Shown here in pieces: positions 1,893 through 29,209 of a stretch of DNA of 46,404 bases (the first letter of the stretch is position 1; each line of letters opens with the position of its first letter). The DNA is from an uncultured Anaerolineae bacterium (GTDB taxonomy: Bacteria; Chloroflexota; Anaerolineae; JACIWP01): positions 1 to 46,404 of the forward strand of contig CALIBQ010000048.1 of the NCBI GenBank assembly GCA_938049385.1, read 5' to 3'. Below the pieces are notes generated by a model that was not told the origin of the DNA, did not search any database, and saw only the letters and a list, made by a program, of their open reading frames with translations. A program made the position numbers and the translations under genes.

Positions 1893-2528
1893 TTATAACT
1901 GCCGGCGTGCCATCTGCACACCGAGCCAGCTCCAGACTCCCAGACAAACCACCCCCAACAGTGAGACGAACACTACCGTCGGCATCAGGAAGCTCATCAG
2001 CCAGTCCCAGAACGAGGCCGGCAGAACGCCGGTGATGCCCAGCGCCTGACATCCTATGTTCGCCAGCTCCCGGATGGTGCCAAACCAGCCAGGTGCGTTC
2101 AGCGAGGGGAATATGCCGGCCAGCCAGTTCAGCCAGGCGCTCGCCGGCGCGAACAGGCCGGCCACCATCGCCGCCAGGCCGAACGCCAGGGTAACGATAG
2201 CGGCCGCCTCTACCAGCGCGCCCCACATCACCAGCCCGGCCGGGAAGGCCCATGTCGCCCAGGAGGGCCGGCGGAGAGGGTATGCGGCCGGCCGATGGGG
2301 GAGCATCTGGATGAGCGCACGAGAGAATACCTGCGCCCGTTCGACCGCTGTCCCTGGCGCTTCCCAAACACGCAGGGTGCGGGAAAGAAGGCGCAGTTCC
2401 GCCAGCCGGCGCGCACATTCCGCGCATCCGCGTACGTGTTCCTCTATCAGCAGGCGCCGGCGGCCCTCCAGCTCCCCATCAGCGAAGGCCGTCAGCAGGG
2501 CAGAAACCTCATCATGGTTCACTCGCAT
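1893..2528 (-). CDS. Zinc-finger (zf-HC2) anti-sigma factor, membrane-bound
   Basis: A 211-residue anti-sigma factor that would hold the ECF sigma factor encoded just upstream at the membrane. The N-terminus has the ZAS/zf-HC2 signature H-x3-C-x2-C (His31, Cys35, Cys38, in HVRGCAEC), preceded by the usual helix with ADGEL. Residues 75 onward carry about three hydrophobic segments, including one at the very C-terminus. Start choice: the ATG at 2528 has a strong AAGGAGGA upstream and overlaps the sigma gene by 17 bases, typical of translational coupling of a sigma/anti-sigma pair. An in-frame upstream ATG at 2606 would embed the start deep within the sigma gene and add a basic, unconserved extension, so I reject it. 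Confidence 0.88.
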   Translation of the reverse strand: MRVNHDEVSALLTAFADGELEGRRRLLIEEHVRGCAECARRLAELRLLSRTLRVWEAPGTAVERAQVFSRALIQMLPHRPAAYPLRRPSWATWAFPAGLVMWGALVEAAAIVTLAFGLAAMVAGLFAPASAWLNWLAGIFPSLNAPGWFGTIRELANIGCQALGITGVLPASFWDWLMSFLMPTVVFVSLLGVVCLGVWSWLGVQMARRQL

Positions 2529-3123
2529 CCTCCTCCTTGCCGCCAGGGGCATGTACCGGAATCTCCAACAGCGGCGCCAGCCTTTCCCGCAGGAGCCGGC
2601 GCGCATAATGCAGACGCGACATCACCGTACCCATAGGAATGCCCAGCGTCTCGGAGATTTCCCGATAGGACAGGCCCTCGTACTCCCGCAGGATGAGGGC
2701 AATGCGGCACTGCGCCGGCAGGGACAGCACCGCCTGACGCACAAGCTGACGCATTTCCTCCTGTTCTATGCGGTGCAGGGGCGCTTCCGCGGCAGGCGGG
2801 GCTGGCAGGATCCCCTCGTCCAGCGGCTGTTCGGGGTTCTGCCGGCGCAGATAATCCAAGGTCGTATTGGTCACGATGCGCCCTAGCCAGACCCGAAAAC
2901 TGCAGTCGCCGCGAAACTGCGGAAGCTTCCGCCAGGCCTTGATGAAGGCCTCCTGCGCCAGGTCTTCCGCCATCTGTGAGTTGCCCGTCATGCGGTACGC
3001 CACACCGATGGCAAAGGAACAGTAACGCTCGGCCAGGGCCCCGAAGGCCGCTTTATCGCCGGCGCGACTGCGAGCCAGCAGTATCGCTTCGCCGTCCGGT
3101 TCTTGATGCGTGTCCTGGGCCAT
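2512..3123 (-). CDS. ECF RNA polymerase sigma factor (RpoE-like)
   Basis: A 203-residue group 4 sigma factor. Region 2 spans about residues 25-95, with the -10 recognition helix around AEDLAQEAFIKAWRKLPQF. Region 4 spans about 130-185, with the helix-turn-helix LSYREISETLGIPMGTVMSRL. There is no sigma-3 domain, as expected of ECF factors. The gene overlaps a zinc-finger anti-sigma gene, which gives the regulatory partner, and a membrane protein gene follows. The inducing signal is unknown. The ATG at 3123 has only a weak purine-rich ribosome site (GAGAG). No clear -35/-10 or GGAAC-type autoregulatory promoter was seen in the 96 bases upstream. Confidence 0.92.
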   Translation of the reverse strand: MAQDTHQEPDGEAILLARSRAGDKAAFGALAERYCSFAIGVAYRMTGNSQMAEDLAQEAFIKAWRKLPQFRGDCSFRVWLGRIVTNTTLDYLRRQNPEQPLDEGILPAPPAAEAPLHRIEQEEMRQLVRQAVLSLPAQCRIALILREYEGLSYREISETLGIPMGTVMSRLHYARRLLRERLAPLLEIPVHAPGGKEEDASEP

Positions 3124-3805: not shown

Positions 3806-3860
3806 ATTCTCCCTTTTCCGCCCAGACGTTCCACATCCGGGCGAAACCAGGCCGCGATAT

Positions 3861-3889
3861 TTGACGTTTCGCATCTTTACTGGTAAGAT
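3861..3889 (+). promoter_or_regulatory. Sigma70-type promoter of the glycosyltransferase operon leader
   Basis: TTGACG (3861-3866), a 17-base spacer and TAAGAT (3884-3889). Transcription should begin at about 3896-3898, only some 20 bases before a strong intrinsic terminator hairpin. The first gene of the operon starts at 4013. Confidence 0.75.
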
Positions 3890-3897
3890 ATCACTGC

Positions 3898-3984
3898 ATG
3901 AACAATTGGGTCAAAGTGGCCCCCTCTTGGACTGGGTTTCCAGCAGGGGGCTTTTTAGGCTTTACGGCCGGCCCAACGCACTGA
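3898..3984 (+). CDS. Putative 28-residue leaderless leader peptide
   Basis: An ATG lies at the predicted transcription start (3898) and opens a 28-codon frame beginning MNNWVKVAPSW and ending TAGPTH before a TGA at 3982-3984. There is no room for a Shine-Dalgarno site, so translation would be leaderless. The frame runs straight through both arms of the terminator at 3919-3956, so a translating ribosome would physically open the hairpin. Two Trp codons fall within the first 11. It may be a chance frame; its position between promoter and terminator is the only support. Confidence 0.3.
   Translation: MNNWVKVAPSWTGFPAGGFLGFTAGPTH
3919..3956 (+). terminator. Intrinsic terminator or attenuator before the glycosyltransferase operon
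   Basis: GCCCCCT (3919-3925) pairs with AGGGGGC (3945-3951). An inner CTGG/CCAG pair closes a GTTT loop, and five T follow at 3952-3956. It is a textbook rho-independent terminator. No rightward gene precedes it, so it should act on the transcript from the promoter at 3861-3889. Confidence 0.8.
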
Positions 3985-4012
3985 TTCATTCGACGGGAGT
4001 TTACCATCGCCA

Positions 4013-5137
4013 ATGCGCATCGGCATTGATGCTCGGTTGCTGTACTACAGCCCCGGCGGCATCGCAGAATACACCAAACGCCTAGTTCAGGCGCTGGCCC
4101 ACCTGGACGGGGACGAGGAATTTGTCATTCTTTACAGCCGCAAAGACGCAAGGCATAACCTGGTCACAGACAACCCTCGCTTCAAGCGCGGTATTCTCTG
4201 GACACCCAGCCATCACCGCCTGGAAAGCTGGCTCCTTTCGCTGGAACTGAGCCGCTTCCGGCTTGACGTCATGCACAGCCCCGACTTCATCCCGCCACAC
4301 TCCACCGCCTTCCGCACCGTCATCACCGTGCATGACCTGGCCTTCCTGCTGTATCCGCACTTTCTCACCAAGGAGAGCGCGCGCTACTACGGCCAGATCG
4401 ATCAGGCGGTGCAGCGTGCCAACCATATTATCACGGTCTCGGAAAGCACCAAACGCGACACGATGCGGCTGTTGGGCGTGCCGGAGCGCAAGATCAGCGT
4501 GATTTACGAGGCGGCGAATCCGCTGTTCCGCCCTGTGCCGAGGGAGGAAGCGCGGCGCGCCCTGGAAGACGCCGGCTATTCCCTCCCGCCGGCCTACATC
4601 CTCTTCGTCAGCACCATCGAGCCGCGCAAAAACGTGCCGGCCCTGCTGAAGGCCCTGCGCAACCTCCGCGACCGCTACCGCCTGCCGCATAAACTGGTGC
4701 TGGCCGGCCGCAAAGGCTGGCTCTTCGATGACGTCTTCACCCTCACCAACCAGCTCCGGCTGGAGGAGGACTGCATTTTCCTCGGACATGTGCCGGTCGA
4801 GCACCTGCTGTACCTGTATAACGCCGCCGATGTGCTGGTGCATCCGGCCTTTTATGAAGGGTTCGGCCTGCCCCCGCTGGAAGCCATGTCCTGCGGCACC
4901 CCGGTCATCGTCTCCAACGTCTCCGCCATGCCCGAAATCGTCGGGGACGCCGGCCTGCTCATTGACCCCCACGATGTGGAAGACCTGACCGTCGCTATCT
5001 GGCGCGCCCTGACGGACGAGAATCTGCGCGCGCAAATGCGCGAGCGCGGTCTGGCGCGAGCCAAGCTTTTCTCCTGGGAAAAGGCCGCCGAACAAACCCT
5101 GGCTGTATACCGCCAGGTCGCCGGCCAGGCCGGATAG
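4013..5137 (+). CDS. Glycosyltransferase family 4 (GT-B fold)
   Basis: A 374-residue retaining GT-B glycosyltransferase of the GT4 (Glycos_transf_1) type. The N-terminal acceptor domain starts MRIGIDARLLYYSPGGIAEY, with the Gly-Gly loop that binds the donor. The linker region has FVSTIEPRKNVPALLKAL. The C-terminal domain holds the EX7E motif in EGFGLPPLE, followed by AMSCGTPVIVSN. It transfers a nucleotide-activated sugar to a lipid-linked or glycan acceptor at the cytoplasmic face; the sugar cannot be deduced. It is the first gene of a three-gene glycosyltransferase run, 28 bases before the next. Expression probably depends on read-through of the terminator at 3919-3956. The similarity in style is to mannosyl- and rhamnosyl-transferases of exopolysaccharide loci. 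Confidence 0.92.
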   Translation: MRIGIDARLLYYSPGGIAEYTKRLVQALAHLDGDEEFVILYSRKDARHNLVTDNPRFKRGILWTPSHHRLESWLLSLELSRFRLDVMHSPDFIPPHSTAFRTVITVHDLAFLLYPHFLTKESARYYGQIDQAVQRANHIITVSESTKRDTMRLLGVPERKISVIYEAANPLFRPVPREEARRALEDAGYSLPPAYILFVSTIEPRKNVPALLKALRNLRDRYRLPHKLVLAGRKGWLFDDVFTLTNQLRLEEDCIFLGHVPVEHLLYLYNAADVLVHPAFYEGFGLPPLEAMSCGTPVIVSNVSAMPEIVGDAGLLIDPHDVEDLTVAIWRALTDENLRAQMRERGLARAKLFSWEKAAEQTLAVYRQVAGQAG

Positions 5138-5165: not shown

Positions 5166-6437
5166 ATGACGACGCCAGCTCCTACCCAAAAACCCTACCG
5201 CCTCCTGATGCTGACATCTCAGCTCCCGTATCCGCCGCACCAGGGTGCCACCATCCGCAGTTTCAACATCCTGCGGCACTTGGCCGGCCGGGCGGAGATT
5301 GACCTCCTGTCGTTCGTGACCCGGCCGGAGGAAATGGAGGCGGCCGACCCCCTGTGGGAGCTGTGCCGGCGCATTACATGGGACGTCACGCCTCGGCGCT
5401 CGCTCCTTCAGCGCGCCCTCACCACCTTTCTCTCGCCCCAACCGGATATGGCCCTGCGCTTCGCCTCGGCGCGCTTCGCCGGCCTGGTGCAGGAAGCACT
5501 GCACAGCGAAGCGTACCACGCGGTGCTGGGCGTGGGCATTGACGTCGGACGCTATCTCCTGCAGGTTGCCGGCTGGCGCCGGCAGGCCGTACCCAGGGGC
5601 CGCCGGCCTGTCCTCATCTTCGATGACCTGAACGCCGAATATCTGCTCCAACAGCGCGCGTTCGAGACCGACCTGCGCCAGTGCTACCGGCCGCGGCGCG
5701 CCGCCGGCGCCCTCTATTCTCTCATCCAGTGGCGTAAACTGCGGCGCTTCGAAGCGCGCGTCTGCCAGGCGGTGGATCATGTGATCGCGGTCTCTGAGGC
5801 AGACCGCCTGGCGCTCCAGCGGCTGGTGCCCGGCCTAAATCCCATCGTGATCCCCAACGGCGTGGACCTTAACCATTATTCGCCATCTCTTGACCTGCCG
5901 CCGGCGGATCTCTCTCGGCCGGCGCTGGTCTTCACCGGCAAAATGGATTTCCGTCCCAATGTAGACGCCGCCATCTGGTTCGCCGAGCAGGTCCTGCCGC
6001 GCATCCGGGCGGAGTTCCCCGGCGCGGCCTTCGCCATCGTGGGGCGCGATCCTCATCCCCTGGTACGCCGGCTCTCCCAACTGCCCGGCGTCCTGGTCAC
6101 CGGCTATGTGCCGGACGACCGGCCCTACTTCTCCGCCGCCGATGTGTACGTGGTGCCCCTGCGGGTGGGCGGCGGCACCCGGCTGAAAGTCCTCAGCGCC
6201 ATGGCCATGGGGAAGGCCATCGTCTCCACCTCGCTGGGCTGTGAGGGGTTAGGAGTCAAGCACGGGCAGGAGGTCCTGCTGGGGGACACACCGGAGGACT
6301 TCGCCGGCCATACTATTCAACTGTTGCGGGACGCCGGCCTGCGGCAGGAGCTGGGCCGGCACGCCCGCCGGTTTGTGGAAGCGCATTATGCCTGGTCAGC
6401 CCTTGTGCCCCGCCTCGAACAGCTCTATGCCGAATGA
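5166..6437 (+). CDS. Glycosyltransferase family 4, exopolysaccharide type
   Basis: A 423-residue GT4-type enzyme. The N-terminus LLMLTSQLPYPPHQGATIRSF resembles the sugar transferases found in exosortase/PEP-CTERM polysaccharide loci (TIGR03087-like). The middle has DHVIAVSEADR and VIPNGVDLNHYSP, the usual hinge motifs. The C-terminal donor domain has FTGKMDFRPNVDA, VPLRVGGGTRLKVLSAMAMGK and IVSTSLGCEGL. It would add a sugar to a surface-polysaccharide precursor. It sits 28 bases after the first transferase and overlaps the third by 11 bases, so the three are one operon. No signal or membrane segment is present. The donor sugar is unknown. Confidence 0.9.
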   Translation: MTTPAPTQKPYRLLMLTSQLPYPPHQGATIRSFNILRHLAGRAEIDLLSFVTRPEEMEAADPLWELCRRITWDVTPRRSLLQRALTTFLSPQPDMALRFASARFAGLVQEALHSEAYHAVLGVGIDVGRYLLQVAGWRRQAVPRGRRPVLIFDDLNAEYLLQQRAFETDLRQCYRPRRAAGALYSLIQWRKLRRFEARVCQAVDHVIAVSEADRLALQRLVPGLNPIVIPNGVDLNHYSPSLDLPPADLSRPALVFTGKMDFRPNVDAAIWFAEQVLPRIRAEFPGAAFAIVGRDPHPLVRRLSQLPGVLVTGYVPDDRPYFSAADVYVVPLRVGGGTRLKVLSAMAMGKAIVSTSLGCEGLGVKHGQEVLLGDTPEDFAGHTIQLLRDAGLRQELGRHARRFVEAHYAWSALVPRLEQLYAE

Positions 6438-7629
6438 CGTCCGTTCCCGCCCAGCGGCGCGAGAGCGCGGGCGCGCGGCCCTCCTGTGGCTCTTCCGCCG
6501 GCTCTCCGCTCCCCTCTTGGGCAGACAGCGCCCGCCCTCTTCCGTCCGGCGCGTCCTCATCATCCGCCCGGATCATCTTGGTGATGTGCTGTTCACCACG
6601 CCGGCGCTGGAGCGGTGGCGGGAGGCGGCCGCCGGCCGCATCGCGACGACCCTGTCCGTCGGGCCGTGGGCCAGGGATATCGCCGAGCATGGGCCGCCAG
6701 TCGAAGACATCGAGGTATTCCCTTACCCCGGCTTTACACGCGCCCCCAAAGGCGCGCCCTGGGCACCCTATATCCTGCTGTGGCGGGAGGCGAAGCGTCT
6801 GCGGCGCCGGCACTTCGACCTGGCGGTCATCCTGCGCTTCGACCACTGGTGGGCCGGCCTGTTGTGCTACCTGGCCGGCATCCCCCTGCGTCTGGGTTAT
6901 GACACCATACCCTTACGCTGTTTCCTGACGCACGCCGTCCCATACGCCGGCATTCAGCACGAGGTCCAGCGCAACCTGACGCTCATCGAACACGCGCTGG
7001 CACTGGCCGGCCTCACCCTTAGCCCGCCGACGGAATTTCCGCGGCTCATTTTCCAGCTTGCAGAGGAAGATCGGGAGGCTGTGCGGCGTCTGCTTGCCGG
7101 CCGCGGGCTGGATACCGGCCGGCCGCGGGTCGTCCTGCACCCCAGCGCCGGCGCGGCGGTCAAAGAATGGCCGGCGGAGCGCTTCGCCGAGGTCGGGGAC
7201 GCGCTGGCGAAGCAGTTCGACGCCCACATCCTGATCACCGGGGCGCGCGCAGACATCAGCCAGGCGTGGAAGGTCGCGGCGCTGATGCGGGAAGAGGCTG
7301 TAGTGATCGCCGGCCGCACCACTCTCGGTCAGCTTGCCGCCCTGCTGGCGGAAAGCGACCTGGTCATCGGCGCCGACAGCGGCCCAATGCATCTAGCGGT
7401 AGCGGTGGGGACGCCGACGGTGCACCTGTTCGGGCCGGCGGACCCGGCCCTGTTCGGCCCCTGGAGCGAGCGGCCGGCGGACCATATCGTCATCCGCGCC
7501 GGCTGTCCCTGCGCCCCCTGCAACCGCCTGGATTTCCCGCCGGAGGAGCTTCCCCGCCACCGGTGCATGGAGACCATCTCCACCGCTGAGGTGCTCCGCG
7601 CCGCCGCAGAACAGCTTGGGCGCCAGTAA
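6427..7629 (+). CDS. Glycosyltransferase family 9 (heptosyltransferase-like)
   Basis: A 400-residue GT9 protein related to ADP-heptose:LPS heptosyltransferases. Motifs are VLIIRPDHLGDVLFTTPAL near residue 45, VVLHPSAGAAVKEWPAERF for the donor site near 240, and DLVIGADSGPMHLAVAVGTP with LFGPADP near 310-340. A Cys-rich stretch, GCPCAPCNR, lies near residue 360 and is common in GT9 sequences. Start: the ATG at 6427 overlaps the end of the preceding gene; a longer frame from 6373 would overlap by 65 bases. The ribosome site is weak, consistent with coupling. In diderm bacteria the family builds LPS inner core. In a probably monoderm lineage the real acceptor is more likely another surface glycan. 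A PfkB protein similar to the heptose-phosphate kinase HldE lies at 42311-43336. Confidence 0.88.
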   Translation: MPNDVRSRPAARERGRAALLWLFRRLSAPLLGRQRPPSSVRRVLIIRPDHLGDVLFTTPALERWREAAAGRIATTLSVGPWARDIAEHGPPVEDIEVFPYPGFTRAPKGAPWAPYILLWREAKRLRRRHFDLAVILRFDHWWAGLLCYLAGIPLRLGYDTIPLRCFLTHAVPYAGIQHEVQRNLTLIEHALALAGLTLSPPTEFPRLIFQLAEEDREAVRRLLAGRGLDTGRPRVVLHPSAGAAVKEWPAERFAEVGDALAKQFDAHILITGARADISQAWKVAALMREEAVVIAGRTTLGQLAALLAESDLVIGADSGPMHLAVAVGTPTVHLFGPADPALFGPWSERPADHIVIRAGCPCAPCNRLDFPPEELPRHRCMETISTAEVLRAAAEQLGRQ

Positions 7630-8076: not shown

Positions 8077-9192
8077 TCACGCGCCGGGCGTGAAGGTGAA
8101 ATCACCGTCCTTATAGATCAGCTCGCCATCCAACCATATCTCGCCGCCCTGCCGCAAATCGCAGACCATGTCCCAGTGGATGGCGGAATTGTTCTTCCCA
8201 CCCGATTCCGGGTAACTGCGTCCCAGGGCCAGGTGACAGGTGCCGGCGATCTTCTCGTCGAACAGCGTCTCGCCGGTGAACTGGCGGATGCCCTTATTGG
8301 TGCCGATGGCAAACTCCCCGACATAGCGCGCGCCGGCATCGGTATCCAGCATCTGCCGCAGAAATTCCTCCCCTTTATCGGCATGCGCCTCGACCACGCG
8401 GCCGTTCTCGAAGCGCAGTCGGACGTTTTCCACGCGCCGGCCGGCGTATGTGGCCGGATAGGTGAAGCGGATGGTGCCGTTCACGCTGTCCTCGATGGGG
8501 CTGGTGAAGATTTCGCCGTCCGGGAAGTTTTCCTTGCCGTCGCAGTTGATGAACGGCCGGCCCTCGATGCGCATCTCCAAATCGGTATCCTCAGCGCGCA
8601 CCCGCAGTGTCCGCTTGTCCGCCAGGTAATGGACCCAGGCCTGCTGGAAGGCGGAGAGCCTTTGCCAGTAGGCGATCGGGTCATCCAGGTCGGGCAGGCA
8701 GGCCCCGAAGACGAAGTTCTTGTACTCCTCCTGGGACATCTCCGCGTCCTGGGCGTATGCCGGCGTGGGGAACAGGGACAGCACCCACTGCAGTTCGCCG
8801 GCGGCGGCGCGTTCCATCAGCCGGCGCATGATAGGTTCGCTGGCCTGCGAGCGCAGTACCTGGCGGGCCGGCGGCACATTGGTCAGCGCACGGGTATTGG
8901 CCGCCCCCAGGATATTGATGAACTTGTCATAGCGCTCCACCGCCATTTCCAGGACCGGCGGTATAAAGCGCAACTGCTCCTCGCTGGCATGGTACATGAA
9001 GTACTCCTCCAGCGCCGGCAGGGTGACCTGCAGGCTGGGATGTCCGCCGCGCCCCAGGACCCGGCGGTACACCGCCTCCAGCATGGGGCCGGCCAGGATC
9101 GTGCCCATGATGAACACCAGGTCGTTCGGCTGAACGTTCACGGAATATTCGACCAGGACCTGAGCGATTTTCTCAATGCGCGGGTCTTGCAT
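8077..9192 (-). CDS. Aminopeptidase, M29 family (aminopeptidase T / AmpS type)
   Basis: A 371-residue cytoplasmic metallo-aminopeptidase that removes N-terminal residues from peptides. The family length is about 370-415. Features visible: the N-terminal PNDLVFIMG strand region, the GEIFTSPIEDSVNG segment with the first Glu ligand (near 230), VGEFAIGTN with the second Glu (near 295), and the terminal metal-binding IHWDMV (His-x-Asp, near 345). M29 enzymes use two divalent metals and are often thermostable. The ATG at 9192 is preceded by AAAGGAG. The GNAT gene ends 27 bases upstream, so the two are probably co-transcribed. It would degrade peptides brought in by the ABC importer at 14562-24325; that link is inference. 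Confidence 0.92.
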   Translation of the reverse strand: MQDPRIEKIAQVLVEYSVNVQPNDLVFIMGTILAGPMLEAVYRRVLGRGGHPSLQVTLPALEEYFMYHASEEQLRFIPPVLEMAVERYDKFINILGAANTRALTNVPPARQVLRSQASEPIMRRLMERAAAGELQWVLSLFPTPAYAQDAEMSQEEYKNFVFGACLPDLDDPIAYWQRLSAFQQAWVHYLADKRTLRVRAEDTDLEMRIEGRPFINCDGKENFPDGEIFTSPIEDSVNGTIRFTYPATYAGRRVENVRLRFENGRVVEAHADKGEEFLRQMLDTDAGARYVGEFAIGTNKGIRQFTGETLFDEKIAGTCHLALGRSYPESGGKNNSAIHWDMVCDLRQGGEIWLDGELIYKDGDFTFTPGA

Positions 9193-29055: not shown

Positions 29056-29127
29056 TGCGGGGTGGAGCAGTGGCAGCTCGTTGGGCTCATAACCCAAAGG
29101 TCGTTGGTTCGAATCCAACCCCCGCTA
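29056..29127 (+). tRNA. Initiator tRNA-fMet (CAT anticodon)
   Basis: A 72-base cloverleaf with anticodon CAT at 29088-29090. Initiator hallmarks: positions 1 and 72 do not pair (T opposite T), the anticodon stem has three consecutive G-C pairs (TTGGG/CCCAA), and the D stem has A11-T24 (GAGC/GCTC). The T stem is GTTGG/CCAAC. The discriminator is A and the next bases are CCT, so the 3' CCA is not fully encoded and must be added. Confidence 0.93.
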
Positions 29128-29133
29128 CCTGAA

Positions 29134-29209
29134 GGCGGCGTAGCTCAGTTGGCAGAGCAAACGGCTCATAATCGTTGGGTCACTGGTTCGAGTCCAGTCG
29201 CCGCCACCA
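29134..29209 (+). tRNA. Elongator tRNA-Met (CAT anticodon)
   Basis: The acceptor stem GGCGGCG (29134-29140) pairs with CGCCGCC (29199-29205). The D stem is GCTC/GAGC, the anticodon CAT is at 29167-29169 and the T stem is ACTGG/CCAGT. The discriminator A is followed by an encoded CCA (29207-29209). It starts 6 bases after the initiator tRNA. A CAT anticodon could also belong to lysidine-modified tRNA-Ile2, but the acceptor and D-arm sequence resemble elongator Met. Confidence 0.88.

Follow-up and report, generated by a model that had tools for sequence, protein, structure and literature searches.

Positions 3861–4012 of the window, the 46,404-nt stretch of Chloroflexota DNA analyzed here, are probably (at a rough probability of two in three) a single-hexaloop transcription attenuator of the kind targeted by ANTAR proteins, ahead of a glycosyltransferase (GT) operon. 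At the level of sequence, a promoter, a terminator, a mutually exclusive hairpin, class-wide conservation of these parts, and a kinase/ANTAR pair in the same genome are all in evidence. We infer that the genome's own ANTAR protein binds here, that its binding activates the operon, and that a lone hexaloop suffices; the case for binding comes from the signature of the hairpin and its co-occurrence with ANTAR genes. The closest named relative of the window genome (G000) is Anaerolineae bacterium RSWS7, at 97% identity in the GT protein. The features discussed are as follows.

3861–3889, plus strand: sigma-70-type promoter TTGACG-N17-TAAGAT, read from the sequence and by comparison with shuffles.
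3898–3984, plus strand: 28-codon ATG frame spanning the hairpins, judged incidental and non-functional (absent in 16 of 27 leaders, peptide unconserved).
3908–3922, plus strand: small alternative hairpin GGG-U-C[AAAGUG]G-CCC, a putative antiterminator, from the class-wide motif.
3913–3918, plus strand: hexaloop AAAGUG (A1 at 3913, G4 at 3916), closed by C3912-G3919, matching the published ANTAR recognition signature.
3919–3951, plus strand: intrinsic terminator hairpin with outer stem GCCCCCT/AGGGGGC and inner helix UUGGA/UCCAG, from the fold and covariation in 38 relatives.
3952–3956, plus strand: terminator U-tract of five T, read from the sequence.
4013–5137, plus strand: operon gene 1, a family-4 glycosyltransferase (GT4; Pfam Glycos_transf_1), the conserved gene downstream of the leader motif.
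5166–6437, plus strand: operon gene 2, a GT4-type glycosyltransferase.
6373–7629, plus strand: operon gene 3, a GT9 (heptosyltransferase-like) frame whose true start probably lies within the frame.

The promoter is as the initial annotation described it, with TTGACG at 3861–3866, a 17-nt spacer, TAAGAT at 3884–3889, and a start site predicted at ~3896–3898. It is one of three in 2 kb, where 0.4 are expected from shuffles, and a promoter of the same type stands 8–50 nt before the stem at 37 of 47 GT-leader terminators versus 5 of 223 terminators elsewhere. In two congeners the leader is 90–92% identical to that of the window from ~3856, just upstream of the -35 box. Synteny breaks at 3841–3860, and the congeners' DNA upstream of ~3856 is unrelated, while promoter and operon stay together. 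Leader DNA in other families of the class is too diverged for alignment, but the order of the parts is unchanged: TTGACG-17-TATgAT is followed by a hairpin with its T-run and then by the start codon of GT4. The GT4 gene is present in many related genomes, and about half of its orthologs are without such a leader. The element has a clustered distribution on the GT tree, where it requires 14 changes (11 of them forced by well-supported branches, against a mean of 23.7 in shuffles), a count that includes some leaders missed by the strict finder.

Elsewhere in the window, the minus strand at 1896–3123 encodes an ECF sigma factor (Sigma70_r2/r4_2) and a zf-HC2 anti-sigma-like gene, directed away from the GT operon. 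A minus-strand frame at 342–713 resembles, by eye, the N-terminal part of an IS5-type transposase, and two tandem tRNA-Met genes lie at 29056–29209.

The complete terminator of the initial annotation, with its 7-bp outer stem and five T, is confirmed by sequence, fold, and covariation. The stem pairs GCCCCCT (3919–3925) with AGGGGGC (3945–3951) before the T-run at 3952–3956, and RNAfold gives the hairpin -21.9 kcal/mol; a simple scanner overlooked it because the loop is long. Across the 38 relatives the stem covaries, with 45 doubly changed cells versus 12.8 in shuffles and 92.8% of cells paired, and the covariation is lost when the pairing partner is slid. The inner CTGG/CCAG pair that had also been claimed does not hold up, as the helix favored by RNAfold and retained in the congeners is UUGGA/UCCAG and the congeners have CTCG. 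We applied a generic terminator finder, blind to the hexaloop motif, to 85 orthologous GT loci across the class. It placed 47 strong terminators in 45 of the 85 GT4 leaders, a density ~9 times higher than elsewhere in the same loci (2.13 versus 0.23 per kb). In several relatives only 21–37 nt separate the end of the U-tract from the GT start codon, a gap too short for another promoter. The operon must therefore be transcribed through the terminator, and the terminator is an attenuator. The promoter, the terminator, the assignment of the terminator to the operon leader, and the idea of attenuation were thus right in the initial annotation. The alternative it offered, an abortive RNA of about 60 bases, stands insofar as such a short RNA is expected, as the terminated product of the attenuator and not as a separate unit.

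The small hairpin at 3908–3922 had gone unnoticed. Most leaders share GGGTCANNGNNGCCC or a variant directly before the terminator stem, and variants with 6–10-nt loops reduce to one form, GGG-(0–4 nt bulge)-C[RNNGNN]G-CCC. This form supersedes an early reading with a 4-bp GGGU/GCCC stem and a 7-nt loop, and it accounts for the 9- and 10-nt variants as well. The GCCC of the small hairpin is the foot of the terminator 5' arm, and in the window G3919–C3922 belong to both structures, so the two are mutually exclusive. The strict motif occurs at 32 of the 47 motif-blind GT-leader terminators versus 9 of 223 elsewhere (p=4e-22), and its frequency is 0.6% when the upstream 26 nt are shuffled; the strict search itself requires a purine at loop position 1, G at position 4, and a C-G closing pair. 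In a fair comparison among hexaloop-sized hairpins at the site, 32 of 36 satisfy the strict definition versus 9 of 74 elsewhere. Within the motif set all 32 loops have G4 and a C-G closing pair, with A at position 1 in 28 of them and G in 4, and the other positions vary. In one group (L095, L096, L110, L112) GGG/CCC has changed jointly to AGG/CCU. The distance from hairpin to terminator is fixed and that from hairpin to promoter varies, which indicates a signal read in RNA and not in DNA.

In the 28 GT leaders that have both a promoter and a hexaloop, the median distance from the predicted start to the beginning of the hairpin is ~8 nt. A further hexaloop was found upstream in 0 of these 28 (0.5 expected), inside the terminator loop in 2 of 32 (2.1 expected), and downstream, before the ATG, in 2 of 32 (4.5 expected), none of which is above chance; after the start site there is no space for one. 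The hairpins are weak, with a median of -2.3 versus -21.6 kcal/mol for the terminator, so a binding partner appears to be needed in most leaders. The window and its congeners have G at loop position 6, which lets the naked RNA shift register: all three prefer register-shifted hairpins at -6.4 to -6.8 kcal/mol over the hexaloop form at -2.2 kcal/mol. These are GGGUC/GGCCC (-6.4 kcal/mol) and, in the window, also GGGUCA/UGGCCC (-6.8 kcal/mol); they occupy the same CCC and so also block the terminator, but lack the ANTAR shape.

The published ANTAR target signature is a hexanucleotide loop with A1 and G4, a C:G closing pair, and a second hairpin over the terminator (PMC3369931, PMC7496416, PMC8934654). 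Hexaloop recognition has been demonstrated for EutV by genetics and biochemistry (PMC3369931), the terminal C:G pair closing the loop emerged from SELEX with NasR (PMC7496416), and ANTAR-RNA recognition has been seen in crystal structures (PMC8934654). The GT leaders have the hexanucleotide loop with A1 and G4 (AAAGUG in the window, though RNAfold prefers the shifted register there), the C:G closure (C3912-G3919 in the window), and exclusivity with the intrinsic terminator of the leader. They do not have the two tandem hexaloops, and EutV antitermination is reported to need both, visited in turn (PMC8934654). Their glycosyltransferase gene is not a nitrogen gene either, although the genome's ANTAR pair adjoins glnA. 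By its defining feature the GT leader is thus not a full member of the dual-hexaloop family, yet most likely it works like one. The minimal ANTAR binding motif has been reduced to one hexaloop, and single-hexaloop sites have been proposed as possible, with work on them called for (PMC8934654).

An ANTAR protein is encoded in the window genome and in 39 of the 43 genomes with the motif, and ANTAR (PF03861) occurs in 149 of 212 other GT genomes (p=0.004) and in 205 of all 353 others (p=1e-5); the p-values ignore shared ancestry, and the association is partly phylogenetic. The four motif genomes that show no ANTAR gene (G001, G127, G220, G254) are all fragmented MAGs, and G001 is a congener of G000 and G002, both ANTAR-positive. 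On contig C26 of the window genome, a PdtaS-type kinase (PdtaS-GAF/HisKA_2), a receiver-ANTAR response regulator, and glnA lie side by side. The receiver-ANTAR protein has 198 aa (E=1.9e-25), and its nearest solved structures are 1s8n and EutV 6wsh/6ww6.

Between the ANTAR gene and glnA on this contig lies the glnA leader (L258:6872–6768, minus strand), for which RNAfold, unprompted, gives tandem hexaloops, GC[AAAGAG]GC and GGAC[GCGGCA]GUCC, the second overlapping a terminator. The same arrangement is found in G002 (L259:3328–3224). The window genome thus appears to carry its own internal control, a textbook ANTAR target with dual hexaloops. A separate terminator-like hairpin, GGTCGACGCC[ACGGAA]GGGGTCGACC, lies at 9048–9074 on the minus strand of L258, ~60 nt upstream of the PdtaS-type kinase, tipped by an A1/G4 loop and followed by a T-rich tail, and it is also present in G002. 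Autoregulation of the kinase-ANTAR operon through this hairpin is possible. A covariance model found no second comparable site in the window genome, although the model was tuned to the leaders of GT genes and did not pick up that of glnA either. A scan of 396 genomes took in only 13 candidates from each, which makes its counts lower bounds.

In other genomes the covariance model gave sporadic, weaker matches before ilvB, pyrC (G053), amtB (G149), type-III glutamine synthetase GSIII (G314), and others, with gene names judged from protein starts. The regions upstream of ilvB (acetolactate synthase) in L158, L182, L184, and L218 have terminators, often two in tandem, with a hexaloop of the GGGC[RNNGNN]GCCC type over one of them, and tandem-terminator matches occur in G016, G175, and G285. 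We rejected the ilvB leaders as a conserved second target, as they are found only in some genomes (G016, G175, G285, G034) and not in most. Hexaloop or near-hexaloop hairpins also lie over terminators ahead of nitrogen or biosynthetic genes in L180 (amtB), L186 (type-III glutamine synthetase), L179 (pyrC), and L195 (LysX-like gene). The weaker matches of the model suggest a broader use of the hexaloop attenuator within the class. Genes such as amtB and glutamine synthetase are of the kind that ANTAR controls.

The same pair of antiterminator and terminator could operate without ANTAR, with another protein or a ligand holding the hairpin, or with the hairpin merely slowing terminator folding to give constant read-through. 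The promoter, hairpin, and terminator stand whatever the factor, the register-shifted hairpin of the window is stable alone at -6.8 kcal/mol, and four motif genomes show no ANTAR. On the other hand, G4, the purine at position 1 (A in 28/32), and the C-G closure would be pointless for plain competition and match ANTAR SELEX and structures, and the energy gap between hairpin and terminator calls for a partner in most leaders. Searches against Rfam families gave only meaningless weak scores, with no family match. We consider operation without ANTAR fairly unlikely.

It is much less probable that the promoter and terminator, which at ~60 nt apart would yield a short transcript, form an independent small-RNA gene that merely lies upstream of the GT gene. 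In nearly all genomes the strong matches (E<3e-4) sit immediately before the GT ortholog, the U-tract is only 21–37 nt from the ATG in several leaders, and only the arm foot and the hexaloop are kept, with no distinct RNA body. This possibility was rejected by its position relative to the GT gene.

The initial annotation had favored control by leaderless translation, in which ribosomes on the 28-codon frame (ATG at 3898, last codon ending at 3981, TGA at 3982–3984) would melt the terminator. The ATG does coincide with the predicted start site, and in the window and the two congeners the frame runs open through both arms. Across the class, only 11 of 27 leaders have a start-proximal ATG with a frame open through the terminator, and their peptides are unrelated outside the genus. 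The other 16 have no such ATG and keep promoter, hairpin, and terminator, the kind of outcome that the annotation itself had named as refuting its proposal. It had also suggested looking for synonymous change within the frame. Of the 9 substitutions in the two congeners, 8 alter the amino acid; with 76% of all possible changes being nonsynonymous, this shows no conservation beyond chance. The substitutions sit in the loop or linker, and neither the paired RNA bases nor positions 1 and 4 of the hexaloop have changed. Nor did the leaders have a conserved leader ORF with control codons, as a leader-peptide attenuator would. We regard translation of the frame as a barely credible explanation.

Least probable of all is recruitment by the small hairpin of a LoaP/RfaH-like NusG paralog that carries polymerase through the terminator: NusG paralogs do regulate operons for glycans and polyketides, LoaP binds a small hairpin in the leader (PMC12691694), and the window genome has a NusG paralog, but LoaP sites are UNCG tetraloops, not hexaloops, with no required overlap with the terminator, and a second NusG is found in only 20 of 43 motif genomes (near-complete G019, G037, and G277 have one NusG), so the paralog was rejected as the factor for lack of association with the motif. 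As a separate observation, NusG paralogs adjoin polysaccharide or nucleotide-sugar genes in G015:C8, G022:C165, and G025:C18 (L152, L155, L156), as expected for RfaH/LoaP-like regulators of this class.

In the ANTAR reading that we prefer, RNA polymerase would start at ~3897. By default the strong terminator at 3919–3951 would fold, and transcription would end in the U-tract at ~3956, leaving an RNA of ~60 nt. A phosphorylated ANTAR response regulator would hold GGG-U-C[AAAGUG]G-CCC (3908–3922), occupying the foot of the terminator 5' arm. The terminator could then not close against the U-tract, and polymerase would continue into the glycosyltransferase operon. We give even odds to the broader proposal that one hexaloop within ~10 nt of the start suffices for ANTAR antitermination during elongation, as a minimal switch kept across the class for a surface-glycan operon. 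If true, this would run counter to the idea that two hexaloops have to be visited in turn by an ANTAR dimer, and it would extend ANTAR control beyond nitrogen metabolism. The EutV structural study left the natural action of single-hexaloop sites open (PMC8934654); dozens of natural single-hexaloop leaders, with a dual-hexaloop control in the same genome, make the question directly testable. The reading also offers a candidate signal for glycan genes in Anaerolineae, where regulation is little known: the kinase-ANTAR-glutamine synthetase system, and perhaps nitrogen status.

Compared with known systems, the LoaP/dfn hairpin is likewise a small leader hairpin before the intrinsic terminator of a biosynthetic operon, but it has a UNCG tetraloop, is bound by a NusG paralog, and is separate from the terminator (PMC12691694). 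Leader-peptide attenuators (trp, his, ilv) share a terminator in the operon leader, whereas the GT leader is without a conserved leader peptide. In the RAT antiterminators of BglG, SacY, and LicT, a protein-stabilized antiterminator lies over the terminator foot, as in the GT leader. RAT elements are longer (~29 nt), with internal loops, and are not known to resemble it in sequence. ANTAR targets (eut/EutV, nasF/NasR, amiE/AmiR; PMC3369931, PMC7496416, PMC8934654) share the A1/G4 six-base-loop hairpin with C:G closure over the terminator 5' arm, and the window genome has an ANTAR response regulator and kinase. The GT leaders differ in having one hexaloop instead of two, starting ~8 nt after the transcription start, and a stem usually broken by a 1–4-nt bulge. 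They also control glycosyltransferase genes and not nitrogen genes, and they occur in Chloroflexota, a phylum without mention in two ANTAR papers searched for it. The glnA leader of the same genome has C-G-closed purine1/G4 hexaloops and a mutually exclusive terminator, as the GT leader does, but it carries two hexaloops in tandem and adjoins the ANTAR gene itself.
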